Source of the DNA: a virus
Strand: one strand, 5' to 3'
Virus record (IMG/VR): IMGVR_UViG_3300042876_000590
Coordinates: 1-30,842 of that record
Length of the DNA stretch: 30,842 bases
Shown here: positions 6,210-25,380 of the stretch, in pieces
How positions within the stretch are numbered: the first letter of the stretch is position 1
How the letters are laid out: each line of letters starts with the position of its first letter
Notes under the pieces: model-generated
The model's database searches: none
Seen by the model: only the letters and a program-made list of their open reading frames with translations
Told to the model about the DNA's origin: nothing
Translations under genes and position numbers: made by a program

Positions 6210-7697
6210 CTACCACCCGGCCATCGCCGCGAACGCTCGAACGGCCCCGACGCGATCGACCGCGTGACGAGCGGCTCCCGTGATCGCGTCCACGTAGTCG
6301 TCGTGCAAACCCTTCTGCGGGAAACCGTGGAACTCCTGCAGCGCGTCCTCCGTCCACGGGCCACGCACGAAGAAGACGCGTCCGCGCTCGGCGTAGACGC
6401 TAAACGGCTTCGCGAGCTCGTACTTAGAGCCCGTCTTCTTGTCAGCTATGACCTCGTAGCGCGGTCCGAGCACGTTGCACCTGTAGTGCTCGATCACCTT
6501 GACGCCCGCGGAGCCCGGCTCCTGCTCGATGACGACCGGAACCGCGCGCCCGTCGTCCTTCGCCGTCGCCTCGACGAGGTCGTCGGAGCCACTCGGCGAT
6601 AGGCGCCCGCCCTGGACGTCGAGCACGTAGTAGTCCCCCGACCCCGGCGGCAGCGGGTTGGTGTCGGTCGGGCGCGGGGGATCTGGCGCGAAGCCCACGA
6701 GCGCGCCGCGCGTGAAGTCGGGATCGGGCGCCGTACCCTCTGCGGTCGCGGCGAAATCCCAGTAGCGCACGGCGGACGCTCGGACCTCGGACGGCACCTG
6801 CTCGAGGTCGATCAGCTTGAACCACTCGCGCTTGAAGAGCTTGCCGCCCGGGCGCACGTCCCAGCGGCCGTTCTTGAGTTGCTCTCGCGTGACGTGGTCG
6901 AGCTGGTCCAACTGCCCCTCGTACTCGGCTTGGTCGAGGTGAGGGTTATCGGTCAGTTTCGCGGGCACGAATCCGCGCCCGGGCTGGCGCGTCTTCTCGT
7001 TCACGAACCGCGCATAGACCCACTCATGCCCCTCGCCGCCCGGATTCGCGCCGGCGCGCATGCGCAGCGGCACGCGCGCTAGCGCTCGCAGCGGATCGTC
7101 AGGCGGGAGCGCGTCCATCTTCGGACGACGGATGCGGGACAGCAGGTAGGTGTATTGCGTCTCGGTGAACTGCGTGAGTTCGTCGAAGCCGATGCCCTGG
7201 AACTCTCCACCCTGGTACTGGAACTTGTCGTTCTCGCTCTCGAGGTGGCCGAACGCTAGGACCGAGGGCTTCGCCGGCACGCACTCCCCAGAGGACAACG
7301 TGTGCCACGTGTCGAAGTAGAACGCCTTGAGGTCGCCTGACCAGCGCACGCCGAGGCCCGCACGCGCGCGCGGCATGAGCCACTCGATCGCCCGGTCCAT
7401 GATCGCGCCCGGCTTCGCGAGATCCTTGAATGTGCGCCGCAGAATGAGGTGCGCGTACCCCGGCACGTGGACGTACTGCAGCGCGTCCATCAGAAGCGCG
7501 TCCGACTTGCCACCACCCGCCGCCCCGCCGAATAGGATCTCTCGCTCCTCCCTCGCGAGGAACGCAGCCTGACGCGCAGTCGGCGAGTGGGGACACCACC
7601 CGTTTAGGCGGCGCCCCCACTCGCGCTGGAGCTCCAGATAGATCTCGGTCGGCGTCATGCGCAGCAGCCGCGTACGTGGGTCTAGCAGCGCGTCCAT
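6210..7697 (-). CDS. terL: Terminase large subunit (TerL)
   Basis: A 495-residue packaging motor. The ATPase half has Walker A GGAAGGGKS (57-65), Walker B GIGFDE (168-173) and a coupling-motif region around AGANPGG (215-221). The nuclease half has the RNase H-like triad pattern: D314 in RYWDFAAT, E391 in VVIEQEPG, and acidic residues 466-470 in HDDYVDAITGA. TerL cuts the concatemeric DNA and pumps it through the portal. The start at 7697 has GGGGTGAT directly upstream; a later Met (residue 14) has no ribosome site. It lies 61 bases after TerS. All key residues are present. Confidence 0.95.
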   Translation of the reverse strand: MDALLDPRTRLLRMTPTEIYLELQREWGRRLNGWCPHSPTARQAAFLAREEREILFGGAAGGGKSDALLMDALQYVHVPGYAHLILRRTFKDLAKPGAIMDRAIEWLMPRARAGLGVRWSGDLKAFYFDTWHTLSSGECVPAKPSVLAFGHLESENDKFQYQGGEFQGIGFDELTQFTETQYTYLLSRIRRPKMDALPPDDPLRALARVPLRMRAGANPGGEGHEWVYARFVNEKTRQPGRGFVPAKLTDNPHLDQAEYEGQLDQLDHVTREQLKNGRWDVRPGGKLFKREWFKLIDLEQVPSEVRASAVRYWDFAATAEGTAPDPDFTRGALVGFAPDPPRPTDTNPLPPGSGDYYVLDVQGGRLSPSGSDDLVEATAKDDGRAVPVVIEQEPGSAGVKVIEHYRCNVLGPRYEVIADKKTGSKYELAKPFSVYAERGRVFFVRGPWTEDALQEFHGFPQKGLHDDYVDAITGAARHAVDRVGAVRAFAAMAGW

Positions 7698-11728: not shown

Positions 11729-12114
11729 GGTTTGCCGTCTCCCTTCTCCGCGAGGGCGCGGGTGATGCTGTTGAATTCCCGGTCGATCTCGCTCAGGACG
11801 TGCCGCGCATCGGACTCGGGCCACGTTGTCGCCGGGCCCGCCTCACTCATCGACGCAAGCGCGCGGTCCAACTTCAGCCGCAGCCGCTTAGCGTCGGTTC
11901 GGGCAGCATTCCGCTCGGCGTGCAGCCTCTGGAATGCCTCTGCCTTACGCGACTCGGCCACGTCCAGATCGGCGCGCAGCCGCTCCACCTCGGCCCGGGA
12001 GGCGGCGAGCGCGGACTCGGCGGCGTCGGCGCGGGCAAGGAGGCGACGAATCTCGGCCCCCGCTTCGGCCAACGTATCGCGCAGTTCGGCGAGGTCCAGC
12101 GTCGGGGCGGTCAT
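11725..12114 (-). CDS. Coiled-coil protein of unknown function
   Basis: A 129-residue protein, almost entirely a long charged helix: LAELRDTLAEAGAEIRRLLA, AESALAASRAEVERLRADL, AERNAARTDAKRLRLKLDRA. A short less regular segment follows, then a final helix (ESDARHVLSEIDREFNSITR). It sits second in the operon behind the XRE regulator, with ATGA overlaps on both sides. It resembles the many small phage coiled-coil proteins; no function can be assigned. Confidence 0.65.
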   Translation of the reverse strand: MTAPTLDLAELRDTLAEAGAEIRRLLARADAAESALAASRAEVERLRADLDVAESRKAEAFQRLHAERNAARTDAKRLRLKLDRALASMSEAGPATTWPESDARHVLSEIDREFNSITRALAEKGDGKP

Positions 12115-12353
12115 CGCGTCGCCCCCGGTGCGTGCGGGGGGATCAGGCTCCGCACCGTGCAGCCGAGCGCGCGGGCGATCTGCTCCAGATCGGAGTACCT
12201 CACCGCCCTCCGGCCCGACTCGATCCGGCAGTAGACGGAGCGGTCGAGACCGGCAGCAGCGGCGGCGGCGGTGATTGTGAGGTGCGCTCGGGCGCGAGCT
12301 GCGCGGAGGCGCTGGGACAGGGCGGGGCTCGGGATCGTGGCGGGGGATGGCAT
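12111..12353 (-). CDS. XRE-family transcriptional regulator
   Basis: An 80-residue protein with a complete HTH_XRE domain: LSQRLRAARARAHLTITAAA, then AAGLDRSVYCRIESGRR (recognition helix), then YSDLEQIARALGC (residues about 11-67). It heads the eight-gene minus-strand operon 9248-12353 and probably controls it and the divergent genes at 12585. The start at 12353 has no Shine-Dalgarno. TTGCGC with a 16-base spacer to CTAGTG lies upstream, so a near-leaderless transcript is possible. A 19-bp palindrome at 12421-12439 is the natural operator candidate. Confidence 0.85.
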   Translation of the reverse strand: MPSPATIPSPALSQRLRAARARAHLTITAAAAAAGLDRSVYCRIESGRRAVRYSDLEQIARALGCTVRSLIPPHAPGATR

Positions 12354-12584
12354 CGTGGGGCCACACTAGCGCACGTCGCGGCAGAGCGCAAGCGGGCGCT
12401 GGCGCATCCCAACCGGGGGTGGGTCATCCCGGATGACCCGGGGTCGTGCGCAACCCCCTGCCGAGGGTGCGGCCGGCGGCCTAGTTTCGGGCACTTACGC
12501 TGTTCGGCGGTTGGCCCGGATCTCGCAATACCACTCCTCACAAGCGAACGGGATGGACCCGGACGCCACCAGAGGATAGACGCC
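12354..12584. promoter_or_regulatory. Divergent control region of the accessory cassette
   Basis: A 231-base gap between the XRE gene (minus) and the plus-strand gene at 12585. It holds a 19-bp palindrome (12421-12439) and a weak leftward promoter, TTGCGC-16-CTAGTG, reading towards 12353. The rightward side is AT-poor. AGAGGATAG at 12571-12579 is the ribosome site of the plus-strand gene. I could not pick a convincing rightward promoter. Confidence 0.5.
12421..12439. promoter_or_regulatory. 19-bp palindrome, candidate XRE operator
   Basis: GGGTCATCC (12421-12429), a single central C, then GGATGACCC (12431-12439): a perfect 9-base dyad. It lies 68 bases upstream of the XRE start codon, between divergent genes, as expected for an autoregulatory operator. 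A looser relative, GGGTCA-TCT-TGACCC, lies at 8408-8422 inside the start of terS. Confidence 0.6.
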
Positions 12585-21723: not shown

Positions 21724-22115
21724 CGGCCACCTCGGCGCAGCCACGCGGCGAGGACGTGCTCGCGGTCGAGCCGCGTGCGCCTCCAGTCGGGCGCCTCGCC
21801 ATGCATCTTCTCGGCGGTGCGCGCCACCTGGCGCCGCAGCGACTTGTCAGGGAGCGCCGTCTGAGGATCGAGGTCAGCGAAACACGCCCCGCACACCCTG
21901 AACGGCGTCGCGAGCCGCACGAGCACCCGTGGCCGCTCGCCGCCAGAGGCGCGAACGATCACGAAGACGCGCCACCACGCGGCGCCGTCGCACCCCGCAT
22001 GACTGCACGGGTGGCGGTCGGCGTAGAGGACGACCGCGATCGAGATCAGCGCGATCAGGAGGGGGACGAAAACGGCAAGGATGGCGAGCACGGCGGGGAC
22101 GTTCCGATAGATCAT
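21720..22115 (-). CDS. Single-pass membrane protein with Cys/His-rich soluble part
   Basis: A 131-residue protein. An N-terminal hydrophobic helix (VPAVLAILAVFVPLLIALIS, about 5-30) is followed by HPCSHAGCDGAAWWRVFVIV and CGACFADLDPQ, two possible Cys pairs, then basic helices (SLRRQVARTAEKMHG; RLDREHVLAAWLRRGG). The start ATG 22115 shares one base with the methyltransferase stop (TGATG); a GTG one codon earlier is an alternative. No family is recognised. Confidence 0.6.
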   Translation of the reverse strand: MIYRNVPAVLAILAVFVPLLIALISIAVVLYADRHPCSHAGCDGAAWWRVFVIVRASGGERPRVLVRLATPFRVCGACFADLDPQTALPDKSLRRQVARTAEKMHGEAPDWRRTRLDREHVLAAWLRRGGR

Positions 22116-22669
22116 CACGTGGGGATCTCCTTGGCGACTTGGTTTCCGTAGACCGTCCACCCGGCCCGGGGCCGACGCGCGAAAAGCTCGAGGCGCGGGC
22201 CGGGGCTCATGATCTCGGCGACGTCCTGAAGGCATTCGGGCTTGCGCGAGTGGCCGCCGGCCTTGGCCTTGAACCGTGCGGGGATCGCCGGCATATCGTG
22301 CCGCGGCACCCCGAGGGCGCCACGCGTCGCGAAGAGGCAAAGCTCGAAGACGTGGCGGAAGTAGTGGCCGCCGCCGAAGGTGTTTTTTTCCCACTCGAGA
22401 AACTGAACGAACGAGAAGCCCCAGGCGCGCACGACGTCGAACGCGAGATCGCAATGGGCGTCCGTCGTCCAGAGGTAGAGGTGGGCGCGGGGCGCGACCA
22501 CGCGGGCCACGGGCAGCGCGGGGATCCACGCGTCGGGCTGCGTCTCGTAGCGCAGCGCCTCGTTCGCGGCGCGCTCGGGTGCCATGCGCGAGCCCTTGTC
22601 GTTGAACGACCACGGGGGATCGGCCACGACGCAGCCGAAGCCGCCGGGCACCGTCGGAAGCGGGATCAC
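22115..22669 (-). CDS. MT-A70 family adenine-N6 DNA methyltransferase
   Basis: A 184-residue enzyme with the catalytic DPPW motif at 17-20 (CVVADPPWSF). A YLWTTDAHCDLAFDVVRAWG segment, WEKNTFGGGHYFRHVFELCLFATRG and the ending PRLELFARRPRAGWTVYGNQ are standard for phage MT-A70 proteins. It transfers methyl from SAM to N6 of adenine. GTG start at 22669, with GTGA overlap onto the XRE gene, so it is made from the same early leftward mRNA. It probably protects phage DNA or marks it for regulation. The target site cannot be read from sequence. Confidence 0.92.
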   Translation of the reverse strand: MIPLPTVPGGFGCVVADPPWSFNDKGSRMAPERAANEALRYETQPDAWIPALPVARVVAPRAHLYLWTTDAHCDLAFDVVRAWGFSFVQFLEWEKNTFGGGHYFRHVFELCLFATRGALGVPRHDMPAIPARFKAKAGGHSRKPECLQDVAEIMSPGPRLELFARRPRAGWTVYGNQVAKEIPT

Positions 22670-22944
22670 TTCGCGGCCGAGGGCGGGAAGACGAGGCGCT
22701 GCAGCGTGACGCGCTCGACGATCTTCACGTTGCGCTTGGAGAGACAGTGGGGCGCCGCGAGCGTCCGCGAGAGCGCGTCGAGGATCCGCTGCGCGCTCTC
22801 GGGGCTGAAGCGGCCGCCGCGCTTGCCGGCGAGCACCGCCGAGATCGTGGGCTGCACGACGCCGGATTCGCGCGAGAGCTTGGCTTGCTTCCAGCCGAGC
22901 GCGACGAGGGCGAGGGCGAGAGGGTGTGTCGGTCGGTCGTTCAT
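22666..22944 (-). CDS. XRE-type early regulator (cI/Cro-like)
   Basis: A 92-residue protein with an HTH: LALALVALGWKQAKLSRESG, VVQPTISAVLAGKRGGRFSP (recognition helix and wing), ESAQRILDALSRTL. It is first in the leftward replication module and faces the rightward recombination module. The ATG at 22944 has no Shine-Dalgarno, and the promoter ahead of it (22955-22982) would start transcription only about 3-5 bases upstream, so the mRNA is probably leaderless, like lambda cI from PRM. The TAGC-N5-GCTA dyads over both divergent -10 boxes are its likely operators. Confidence 0.85.
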   Translation of the reverse strand: MNDRPTHPLALALVALGWKQAKLSRESGVVQPTISAVLAGKRGGRFSPESAQRILDALSRTLAAPHCLSKRNVKIVERVTLQRLVFPPSAAK

Positions 22945-22954
22945 GGTCGGCAGG

Positions 22955-22982
22955 ATTAGCAGACCGCTACACGAACCGTCAA
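22955..22982 (-). promoter_or_regulatory. Leftward early promoter with operator dyad
   Basis: On the minus strand: TTGACG (22982-22977), a 16-base spacer, and GCTAAT (22960-22955). The dyad TAGC-AGACC-GCTA (22957-22969, plus-strand reading) covers the -10 box and part of the spacer. Start of transcription is expected near 22948, against an ATG at 22944. Its 28 bases match the rightward promoter at 23 positions, in inverted orientation. Confidence 0.75.
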
Positions 22983-23039
22983 CGAATCTTCGCCGCGCGC
23001 GGCGCGACTCTACGCCGCACCGCGTGACGCATCATCTAA

Positions 23040-23075
23040 TGGGCAGGAAAGAAACCGAAAGAAAAAGAAACGAGA
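23040..23075 (+). promoter_or_regulatory. A-rich purine tract upstream of the rightward promoter
   Basis: GGGCAGGAAAGAAACCGAAA followed by GAAAAAGAAACGAG, almost all purine, directly upstream of the -35 box at 23078. In this GC-rich window such an A-tract stands out and fits an UP element that binds the RNA polymerase alpha subunit. A regulatory-protein site or DNA-bending tract is also possible. Confidence 0.45.
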
Positions 23076-23077
23076 CG

Positions 23078-23105
23078 TTGACGTGCCGTGTAGCGTCCTG
23101 CTAAT
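23078..23105 (+). promoter_or_regulatory. Rightward early promoter with operator dyad
   Basis: TTGACG (23078-23083), 16-base spacer, GCTAAT (23100-23105), with dyad TAGC-GTCCT-GCTA (23091-23103) over the -10 box. Transcription would begin near 23112, leaving a leader of about 26 bases that holds GGAGG (23125-23129) ahead of ATG 23138. It should drive the long plus-strand operon to 30808. Confidence 0.8.
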
Positions 23106-23137
23106 GCTCTCGCCACACTCTCACGGAGGTTCGACAC

Positions 23138-24430
23138 ATGGCAGGGATGAAGTTCTCGACGGGCAAGCGGGCCGCTCCGATCTGGGTTCACCTGTACGGA
23201 CCCGAGGGCATTGGGAAGAGCACCTTCGCCGCCGACGCGCCCGATCCGGTTTTCCTCGATGTCGAGCAGGGGACCGACAACCTCGCCACCTCGCGCGTCA
23301 CGTTCGACGAGGCCGGCGAGCGCACCCGGCCGACCTCGTTCGCCGAGGTCATGACCGCGCTCGGCTCGCTCGCTCGCGACCCGCACCCGTTCAAGACGAT
23401 CGTGCTCGACACGGCCGACGCGCTGGAGGCGCTGATCTGGGCGCAGGTCTGCGCGCAGGCGCAGGTGAAGACGATCGAAGACTTCGGCTACGGGAAAGGG
23501 TACGTGATCGCCCTGAGCCCCTGGCGCCAGTTCGTCGACGCCGTCGAGACGCTCCGCGCGAAGGGCTACAACGTGATCACCCTCGGTCACGCGCTGATCA
23601 AACCCTTCAAGAACCCCGAGGGGGAGGACTTCGATCGCTACATCCCGAAGCTCCACGAGAAGGCCAGCGCGCTGATCAAGGAGCGCGCGAACGCGGTCCT
23701 GTTCGCCAACTGGCGCAACGCGACGCGTAAGGACTCGCAGACGAAGCGGGTCCGCGGCGTGACCGACAAGGCGCGGCTGATCTACACGACGCGCACCGCG
23801 GCCTACGACGCCAAAAACCGCTACGACCTGCCCGAGGAGATGCCGCTGTCGTGGGTGTCGTTCTACTCGGCGGTGCAGGCGCACAAGCCCGCAGACCCCA
23901 CGGCTCTGAGGGCGGCGATCCTCGAGAAGATCGAGCGGCTCCCCGCCGAGGGTCGCGAGGCCGCGGCCGGCTACCTCGCCGCCGCTGGCACCGACGCGGT
24001 GAAGCTGTCGAAGCTCAACGGGTGGATCAACGCGCAGATCCCGGAGAGCGAGACGGCGCCCGCTGCCGCCGAGACGACGCCCGCCGTCACCGCCCCTGTC
24101 GCCCCTGCCGTCACCACCCCCGCGGTGTCCGCGGTTCCCGAACAGCGAACGCCTGCTGCCGAGCCGCTCACCCCCGGCGTGGACGTGCCCGCCATGGCGA
24201 AGCCCACCGCGCCCGTCTCCCCCGCCGTCGACCCGAAGGCCGACCTGCACAAGGAGATCCTCGACGCGGCCGACAGGTGCAAGACCGCGATCGACCTCGC
24301 CAAGTACGTCCTGCCCCTGATCAAGAAGGCGATCGACGGCAAGCGGTTCAGCGAGTCCGAGCTCGCCGAGGTCCGTCAGTGGTACACGGACACGGCCGCC
24401 GCGCTGACGAAGGGGGTGGTGACGCCATGA
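23138..24430 (+). CDS. Sak4-like RecA-fold ATPase (AAA_24), ssDNA annealing/recombination
   Basis: A 430-residue protein. The core has Walker A GPEGIGKST (21-29), FLDVEQGTDNL, and Walker B KTIVLDTADALEAL (86-99). ITLGHALIKPFKNPEGEDFD and a region with LIKERANAVLFANW follow, the layout of phage AAA_24 proteins of the Sak4 type. Those are Rad51-superfamily recombinases that anneal single strands with an SSB partner. Residues about 305-365 are a Pro/Ala/Thr linker. The C-terminal helical domain (DLHKEILDAADRCKTAIDLA ... ELAEVRQWYTDTAAAL) is an extension. It has a strong GGAGG ribosome site and is first gene of the rightward operon. Confidence 0.82.
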   Translation: MAGMKFSTGKRAAPIWVHLYGPEGIGKSTFAADAPDPVFLDVEQGTDNLATSRVTFDEAGERTRPTSFAEVMTALGSLARDPHPFKTIVLDTADALEALIWAQVCAQAQVKTIEDFGYGKGYVIALSPWRQFVDAVETLRAKGYNVITLGHALIKPFKNPEGEDFDRYIPKLHEKASALIKERANAVLFANWRNATRKDSQTKRVRGVTDKARLIYTTRTAAYDAKNRYDLPEEMPLSWVSFYSAVQAHKPADPTALRAAILEKIERLPAEGREAAAGYLAAAGTDAVKLSKLNGWINAQIPESETAPAAAETTPAVTAPVAPAVTTPAVSAVPEQRTPAAEPLTPGVDVPAMAKPTAPVSPAVDPKADLHKEILDAADRCKTAIDLAKYVLPLIKKAIDGKRFSESELAEVRQWYTDTAAALTKGVVTP

Positions 24431-25380
24431 GTCCCGACAATCTCAAGTCGATTCTGGCGCTGCATCGTGCGTGGATTTGCGGAGAGGCAAGCGGTAGCCG
24501 CGCCGACCTCAGCCGCGCCGTCCTCAGAGACGCCGACCTCAGGGGCGCCGACCTCAGCCGCGCCGACCTCAGCCGCGCCGTCCTCAGAGACGCCGACCTC
24601 AGGGGCGCCGACCTCAGCCGCGCCGTCCTCAGGGGCGCCAACCTCAGCGACGCCGTCCTCAGAGACGCCGACCTCAGCCGCGCCGTCCTCAGAGACGCCA
24701 TCCTCAGGGGCGCCAACCTCAGCGACGCCGTCCTCAGCCGCGCCGTCCTCAGAGACGCCGACCTCAGGGGCGCCGTCCTCAGAGACGCCGTCCTCAGGGG
24801 CGCCAACCTCAGCGACGCCGTCCTCAGAGACGCCGACCTCAGCCGCGCCGTCCTCAGAGACGCCATCCTCAGGGGCGCCAACCTCAGCCGCGCCGTCCTC
24901 AGAGACGCCGACCTCAGGGGCGCCAACCTCAGCGACGCCGACCTCAGGGGCGCCGACCTCAGGGGCGCCGACCTCAGCGACGCCGACCTCAGGGGCGCCG
25001 ACCTCAGGGGCGCCGACCTCAGGGGCGCCATCCTCAGGGGCGCCGTCCTACCCACGGATCTTCCGTTCGGCCCCGTGACTCTGCCCGATGGATCTTTCAC
25101 GGCCTATAAGGCCTGCCGAAACGGAGTGATCGTCACCCTAGAGATCCCCGCCGACGCGGAGCGTGTTGCTCCGTTGGTGGGTCGGAAGTGCCGAGCCAGT
25201 AAGGTCCAGGTTGTTACCCTGTCCGTCGGCACCGAGGGCATCTCGCTTCACGACCCCAAGATCGTCTACCGGATCGGCGAGACCGTAACGCCCGATAAAT
25301 ACGACCCCGACCCGCGCGTCGAGTGCTCACACGGGATCCATTTCTTCCTTTCACGCAAGGAAGCCGAGGCCTACCGATGA
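24427..25380 (+). CDS. Pentapeptide-repeat protein with C-terminal DUF5758-like domain
   Basis: A 317-residue protein: an N-terminal helix (MSPDNLKSILALHRAWICG), then 37 uninterrupted pentapeptides of type A(D/V/N/I)L(S/R)(R/D/G), then a C-terminal domain of about 105 residues. The array should form a right-handed quadrilateral beta-helix about nine turns long. The C-terminal domain (FTAYKACRNGVIVTLEIPAD, LVGRKCRASKVQVVTL, VYRIGETVTPDKYD, ECSHGIHFFLSRKEAEAY) matches DUF5758 of phage pentapeptide proteins. Some pentapeptide proteins mimic DNA and protect gyrase, but most have no known target. ATGA overlaps link both ends. Confidence 0.9.
   Translation: MSPDNLKSILALHRAWICGEASGSRADLSRAVLRDADLRGADLSRADLSRAVLRDADLRGADLSRAVLRGANLSDAVLRDADLSRAVLRDAILRGANLSDAVLSRAVLRDADLRGAVLRDAVLRGANLSDAVLRDADLSRAVLRDAILRGANLSRAVLRDADLRGANLSDADLRGADLRGADLSDADLRGADLRGADLRGAILRGAVLPTDLPFGPVTLPDGSFTAYKACRNGVIVTLEIPADAERVAPLVGRKCRASKVQVVTLSVGTEGISLHDPKIVYRIGETVTPDKYDPDPRVECSHGIHFFLSRKEAEAYR
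24496..25050 (+). repeat. 37 x 15-bp tandem repeat array coding the pentapeptides
   Basis: Every unit follows one DNA skeleton, AG(C/A/G)(C/G)(G/A)C-GCC-(G/A)(A/T)C-CTC; only the last unit ends CTA. Third positions are as uniform as the first two. Larger copies are visible: units 1-4 (24496-24555) are repeated exactly as units 5-8 (24556-24615), and a 90-base, six-unit block at 24631-24720 recurs exactly at 24796-24885. This indicates recent growth by slippage or unequal recombination. Confidence 0.95.

Follow-up and report, generated by a model that had tools for sequence, protein, structure and literature searches.

Gene content and layout of the divergent region

The window (the whole stretch of DNA analyzed) is a 30,842-bp IMG/VR virus record with a GC content of 69%, in which two gene arms diverge from a 193-bp intergenic region. 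Reading leftward, the genes encode an XRE-type protein, an MT-A70 methyltransferase, a 153-residue ORF product, a helicase, a C5 methyltransferase, a VapE-type helicase/primase, terminase, portal and head protease; reading rightward, they encode a Sak4-like annealing ATPase, a PD-(D/E)XK nuclease and a ParB-like protein. The 153-residue product has no Pfam or PHROG match and is taken as SSB-like, judged by eye; nothing in the window matched in an Rfam or a tRNA scan. The features of the region are, in coordinate order:

22115 to 22669, minus strand: MT-A70 DNA methyltransferase, overlapping the XRE stop codon by 4 bp, same leftward operon
22666 to 22944, minus strand: XRE-type helix-turn-helix protein, 92 aa, proposed autorepressor (Pfam HTH_3, E 4e-5)
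22945 to 23137: divergent intergenic region, 193 bp, separating the leftward and rightward arms
22982 to 22955, minus strand: leftward early promoter/operator element, TTGACG-N16-GCTAAT, TTGACGGTTCGTGTAGCGGTCTGCTAAT; homologous element in the relative (L003/L004)
22957 to 22969, no strand: 13-bp dyad TAGCAGACCGCTA, proposed operator over the leftward -10
23028 to 23038, no strand: mid-intergenic block CGCATCATCTA, kept in the relative though the rest of the spacer has diverged
23048 to 23071, plus strand: A-rich stretch, possible UP element, directly 5' of the rightward -35; partly kept in the relative
23078 to 23105, plus strand: rightward early promoter/operator element, inverted copy of the leftward one, TTGACGTGCCGTGTAGCGTCCTGCTAAT
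23091 to 23103, no strand: 13-bp dyad TAGCGTCCTGCTA, proposed operator over the rightward -10
23125 to 23130, plus strand: Shine-Dalgarno sequence GGAGGT of the Sak4-like gene
23138 to 24430, plus strand: Sak4-like ssDNA annealing ATPase, first rightward gene (Pfam AAA_24, 2e-45; phrog_124, 2.6e-42)

Searches with the XRE and Sak4 proteins led to one close relative, IMGVR_UViG_3300042876_000780 (G002), represented by two contigs that are identical over a 5457-bp overlap and were treated as one virus. Since this is the only independent relative found, conservation as described below reflects a single comparison. XRE searches of viral and genome collections returned these two identical relatives and otherwise only one weak short match. 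At the more distant Sak4 loci inspected, another coding sequence (nuclease-like by eye) lies directly upstream of Sak4, and a divergent XRE gene is absent.

Protein identity between the two phages is 99% for the 153-residue product, 88% for Sak4 and 61% for XRE. The XRE proteins are identical at residues 27-38 (SGVVQPTISAVL) and 40-48 (GKRGGRFSP), and a structure model of low to moderate confidence places helices at residues 20-27 and 31-38, such that the identical stretches include the predicted recognition helix (residues 31-38). The gene behind XRE encodes a methyltransferase in both phages (22115-22669 in the window; L004:4351-5544 in the relative), apparently of different families although with the same 4-bp overlap. 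The methyltransferase has apparently been exchanged behind a retained XRE regulator, making this gene block mosaic. A further difference lies at 24427-25380 of the window, where a gene has conserved ends flanking a long run of pentapeptide repeats (ADLRGADLS...); the counterpart ORF of the relative (L004, about 7300-7535) lacks the repeats, MSPD leading directly into VAPLVGRKC.

Paired candidate promoter/operator elements

The leftward and rightward 28-bp elements had been described in a first-pass annotation as inverted promoter copies, and they are indeed identical at 23 of 28 positions, whereas among 1000 dinucleotide-shuffled versions of the 193-bp intergenic region the best inverted 28-mer reached at most 20/28. 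They lie within the region's top-ranked inverted repeat, whose 33-nt arms (22952-22984 and 23076-23108) are 82% complementary. The same annotation placed a TAGC-N5-GCTA dyad over each -10 box, and this motif occurs exactly twice in the whole 30.8 kb, at 22957-22969 and 23091-23103. Allowing up to three mismatches to the combined promoter/dyad pattern recovers only these two sites (0.01 expected). The mismatches between the 28-mers cluster in the spacer as claimed, at positions 7-9 and 19-20 of the 28; the conserved block, however, is GTAGC in the main pair, not GTGTAGCG.

The relative keeps both elements, TTGACGGCTCACGTAGCGGGCTGCTATT ahead of XRE and TTGACCTGCCGTGTAGCAGTCTGCTAAC ahead of Sak4, with the same TTGAC-N8-TAGC-N5-GCTA spacing. 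It also has a second divergent pair (L068, about 2690-2840), CTTGACCCTTCCTTAGTGCCCTGCTATATC leftward and CCTTGCGCTCCTTAGCGTCCTGCTATAGCG rightward, which carries the same TAG...CTGCTA core within TAGTGCCCTGCTA and TAGCGTCCTGCTA, the latter being identical to the rightward 13-mer of the window. This pair faces short rightward ORFs and a 98-residue leftward ORF. No such pair was found at the apparently corresponding place in the window, where a second XRE-like gene (12111-12353, minus strand) stands instead, with a perfect 8-3-8 palindrome, GGGTCATCCCGGATGACCC, upstream of it (12421-12439). A MAFFT alignment of all six sites, two from the window and four from the relative, has only the TAG and CTGCTA columns invariant, giving TAG-N4-CTGCTA; of the conserved block, TAG is the part common to all six. 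CTGCTA occurs 15 times in the two genomes together; TAG stands 7 nt upstream of it at these sites and at no others, with one palindromic site entering the count once per strand.

The pattern GTGTAGCGNNCTGCTAAT matched four unrelated contigs, and a looser pattern matched 25 stretches, none of which beyond L003/L050 has a mirror partner. Most of the remaining matches share the repeat CTGTTTGACTTGGTGTGTAGCTTGCTGCTAA (tail-fibre-like coding by eye), and the rest look like chance. One match on a contig with 66% GC, TTGACGGCGGCGGTAGCGCTCTGCTAAC (L076:2192-2217, minus strand), lies upstream of an unrelated XRE gene and has no mirror copy.

The TTGACG-16-GCTAAT arrangement given in the first-pass annotation is present in both elements, but GCTAAT is probably misplaced as the -10: it is weak by Escherichia coli rules, with the A at -11 absent, and it is not conserved, the relative having GCTATT and GCTAAC. 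A better -10 is probably TG-C-TA, its TA falling at -12/-11 in the manner of alphaproteobacterial RpoD promoters; this shifts the preferred hexamer two bases downstream, to TAATCC/TAATGC, and makes the spacer 18 nt long. The Caulobacter RpoD -10 is GCTANAWC (PMC8144410), and CTTGAC-N17-CTATAT has been used as a sigma70 query in Sinorhizobium meliloti (PMC2573895). The leftward member of the relative's second pair matches the latter at 12 of 12 positions and contains GCTATATC, which equals GCTANAWC; its rightward partner matches at 9 of 12 with a spacer of 15. The four main-pair sites of the two phages match this rhizobial consensus at only 8-9 of 12 with a spacer of 18. A sigma70 scanner found no promoter in the region. 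TTGAC and GCTA are best read as a host promoter, probably an alphaproteobacterial one. Alphaproteobacterial RpoD promoters (TTGaCgS / GCtANAWC; CTTGAC-N17-CTATAT) share the -35 and the GCTA motif with the elements described here but lack the TAGC half-site, and the main pair differs in its spacer of 18. Since TTGAC and GCTA match this consensus, it is the TAGC half that promoter function leaves unexplained, and an operator over the -10 would be the simplest reading of the TAGC/GCTA palindrome.

Predicted start of the XRE message

No ATG, GTG or TTG precedes the XRE start codon, an ATG (22944, minus strand), within its ORF. As the first-pass annotation had noted, the gene lacks a Shine-Dalgarno sequence, with a predicted anti-Shine-Dalgarno duplex of only -2.4 kcal/mol against -10.2 kcal/mol for the rightward gene, whose normal leader carries GGAGGT. 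The relative is alike in both respects, having GGAGG ahead of Sak4 and no Shine-Dalgarno sequence ahead of XRE. From the end of the dyad to the XRE ATG is 12 nt in the window and 13 nt in the relative. An XRE start codon some 3-5 bases past the transcription start had been proposed; this near-leaderless geometry is kept in the relative, although the revised -10 brings the predicted start about 2 nt closer. Under either -10 the predicted start would lie no more than about 5 nt from the ATG, and under the preferred one about 1-4 nt, so that a leaderless or almost leaderless XRE mRNA is plausible.

A clear Shine-Dalgarno sequence is also missing from several other genes of the window, so its absence ahead of XRE is not distinctive and the leaderless argument draws on promoter geometry. 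Leaderless mRNAs number 375 in Caulobacter and 171 in S. meliloti, and those of Caulobacter are translated as well as others. Because such messages are common in alphaproteobacteria and translated normally in Caulobacter, a special translational response of the regulator should not be assumed. Nor is the suggestion of differential translation special in itself, since leaderless repressor transcripts are known (lambda cI; PY54 cI and cro).

Proposed regulation of the two arms

The adjacent XRE protein is the simplest and most natural candidate ligand of the dyads, as suggested by its adjacency and the conservation of its helix. Because both promoters bear the same palindrome over the -10, such a repressor can probably switch off both sides together. 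The shared promoter/operator proposed in the first-pass annotation is supported by the relative, which retains the dyads at equal distance from TTGAC and the predicted helix, and has a second pair with the same core. We therefore favor, with a probability of roughly 0.7, an early control region with divergent RpoD-type promoters, 13-bp operators, an XRE autorepressor and a near-leaderless XRE mRNA. The phage would be tailed and probably infect an alphaproteobacterium; none of the searches turned up a host. Each divergent promoter would carry a 13-bp palindromic operator whose inner GCTA doubles as the -10 motif, and an XRE dimer would cover the -10 of both promoters, repressing its own leftward operon (XRE, methyltransferase, the 153-residue SSB-like protein, helicase and further genes) and the rightward recombination operon (Sak4, nuclease and ParB-like protein). 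The XRE mRNA would begin about 1-4 nt before its AUG and be translated leaderless or nearly so, and the rightward gene would be translated via a normal Shine-Dalgarno leader. Promoter activity, start positions, XRE binding, repression and the host group are all inferred here.

Several other explanations bear on this reading. Host RpoD might simply read TTGAC and TGCTA, with no shared operator and with the TAGC half derived from duplication of one promoter. TTGAC/GCTA does equal the published alphaproteobacterial consensus, and the unrelated L076 contig has TTGACGG...TAGCGCTCTGCTAAC before another XRE gene, although the search pattern itself required GTAGC. Yet TAG lies outside the -35 and -10 and is invariant in all six sites, including the pair with different flanks, whereas other positions between the boxes vary; moreover, the sole other TTGAC-GCTA at promoter spacing in either genome is at window position 1415 (minus strand), inside the head protease gene. 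We regard a promoter consensus without an operator as rather unlikely. That the long inverted repeat acts as a structure, for example a cruciform or hairpin at a replication origin, instead of as two separate sites is highly improbable. Folded as single-stranded DNA, the region is more stable than shuffled sequences (z = -3.55), but this excess folding energy is a consequence of the repeat. The relative's two arms match each other at only 18 of 28 positions, yet the promoter/dyad cores remain intact; drift has affected the pairing and not the sites, which argues that the repeat is conserved as binding sites, and the hairpin/origin reading was rejected for this reason.

The operators could also be real and serve another ligand, either the second XRE-like protein of the window or a host regulator, with the adjacent XRE acting elsewhere. 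The existence of the second gene, and an assignment to XRE through adjacency and helix conservation, leave room for this; in the relative, however, the corresponding divergent place holds other genes together with the TAG...CTGCTA pair, and the adjacent XRE is kept with an identical helix, making a different ligand improbable. A small probability is likewise given to XRE being made mainly from a promoter further upstream, around the central block, in which case its mRNA would not be leaderless in the state that matters. In the lambda switch cI is expressed from two promoters, and the conserved CGCATCATCTA could belong to another promoter or site. Nevertheless, no good -35/-10 pair is seen near the block by eye, the scanner found none, and a longer mRNA would still lack a Shine-Dalgarno sequence.

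The region has a helix-turn-helix regulator gene facing an early operon across divergent promoters (the latter recognized by sequence only) and a repeated palindromic candidate operator that overlaps the promoters and is confined to control regions. It does not have the makeup of a lambda-type CI/Cro bistable switch, as there is one XRE gene at the region and one dyad per promoter. Lambda OR and OL each comprise three 17-bp sites, with cooperativity and activation. Proposed control of divergent early arms by a helix-turn-helix repressor and a (here predicted) leaderless repressor mRNA, as for cI from PRM, are shared with lambda; the window differs in having a single 13-bp site at each promoter, and nothing in it points to activation. 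Operators of the 434 repressor type have ACAA/TTGT arms spaced by 6. The dyads resemble these in being short palindromes with 4-bp arms for a small helix-turn-helix dimer (dimer binding being proposed here) but have TAGC/GCTA arms spaced by 5, and the sequence similarity of XRE to a designed 434 domain (1sq8, E 0.0076) is weak, the relation being remote. Restriction-modification controller (C) proteins are small XRE autoregulators with C-boxes that control a restriction endonuclease gene; here each phage has a methyltransferase behind XRE, not the same one in the two, and the scan of the proteins identified no restriction endonuclease. The cI-cro region of PY54/N15 is alike in having divergent promoters for its regulators, a palindromic operator, leaderless messages for the regulators and an A/T-rich UP-like element by one promoter (PMC4488713). 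In PY54, Cro occupies a single 16-bp site and blocks cI alone, and both mRNAs are leaderless (PMC4488713); in contrast, the window has two near-identical sites, one per -10, and a predicted combination of one leaderless and one Shine-Dalgarno-led message.

A more speculative extension, which we consider doubtful, is a minimal symmetric switch in which a palindrome serving as operator and half of the -10 was copied to all early promoters across the phage group, letting one protein shut all early arms with equal affinity. Only the repressor message would then be leaderless, and this separate translation route could precede or outlast the other arm.

As a phage control region the locus is neat but ordinary, of a well-known kind, and leaves general understanding unchanged. 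It does yield TAG-N4-CTGCTA as an operator consensus, together with a candidate regulator, for a phage group not otherwise characterized, and it illustrates how a host promoter consensus may be turned into an operator by about four extra bases.
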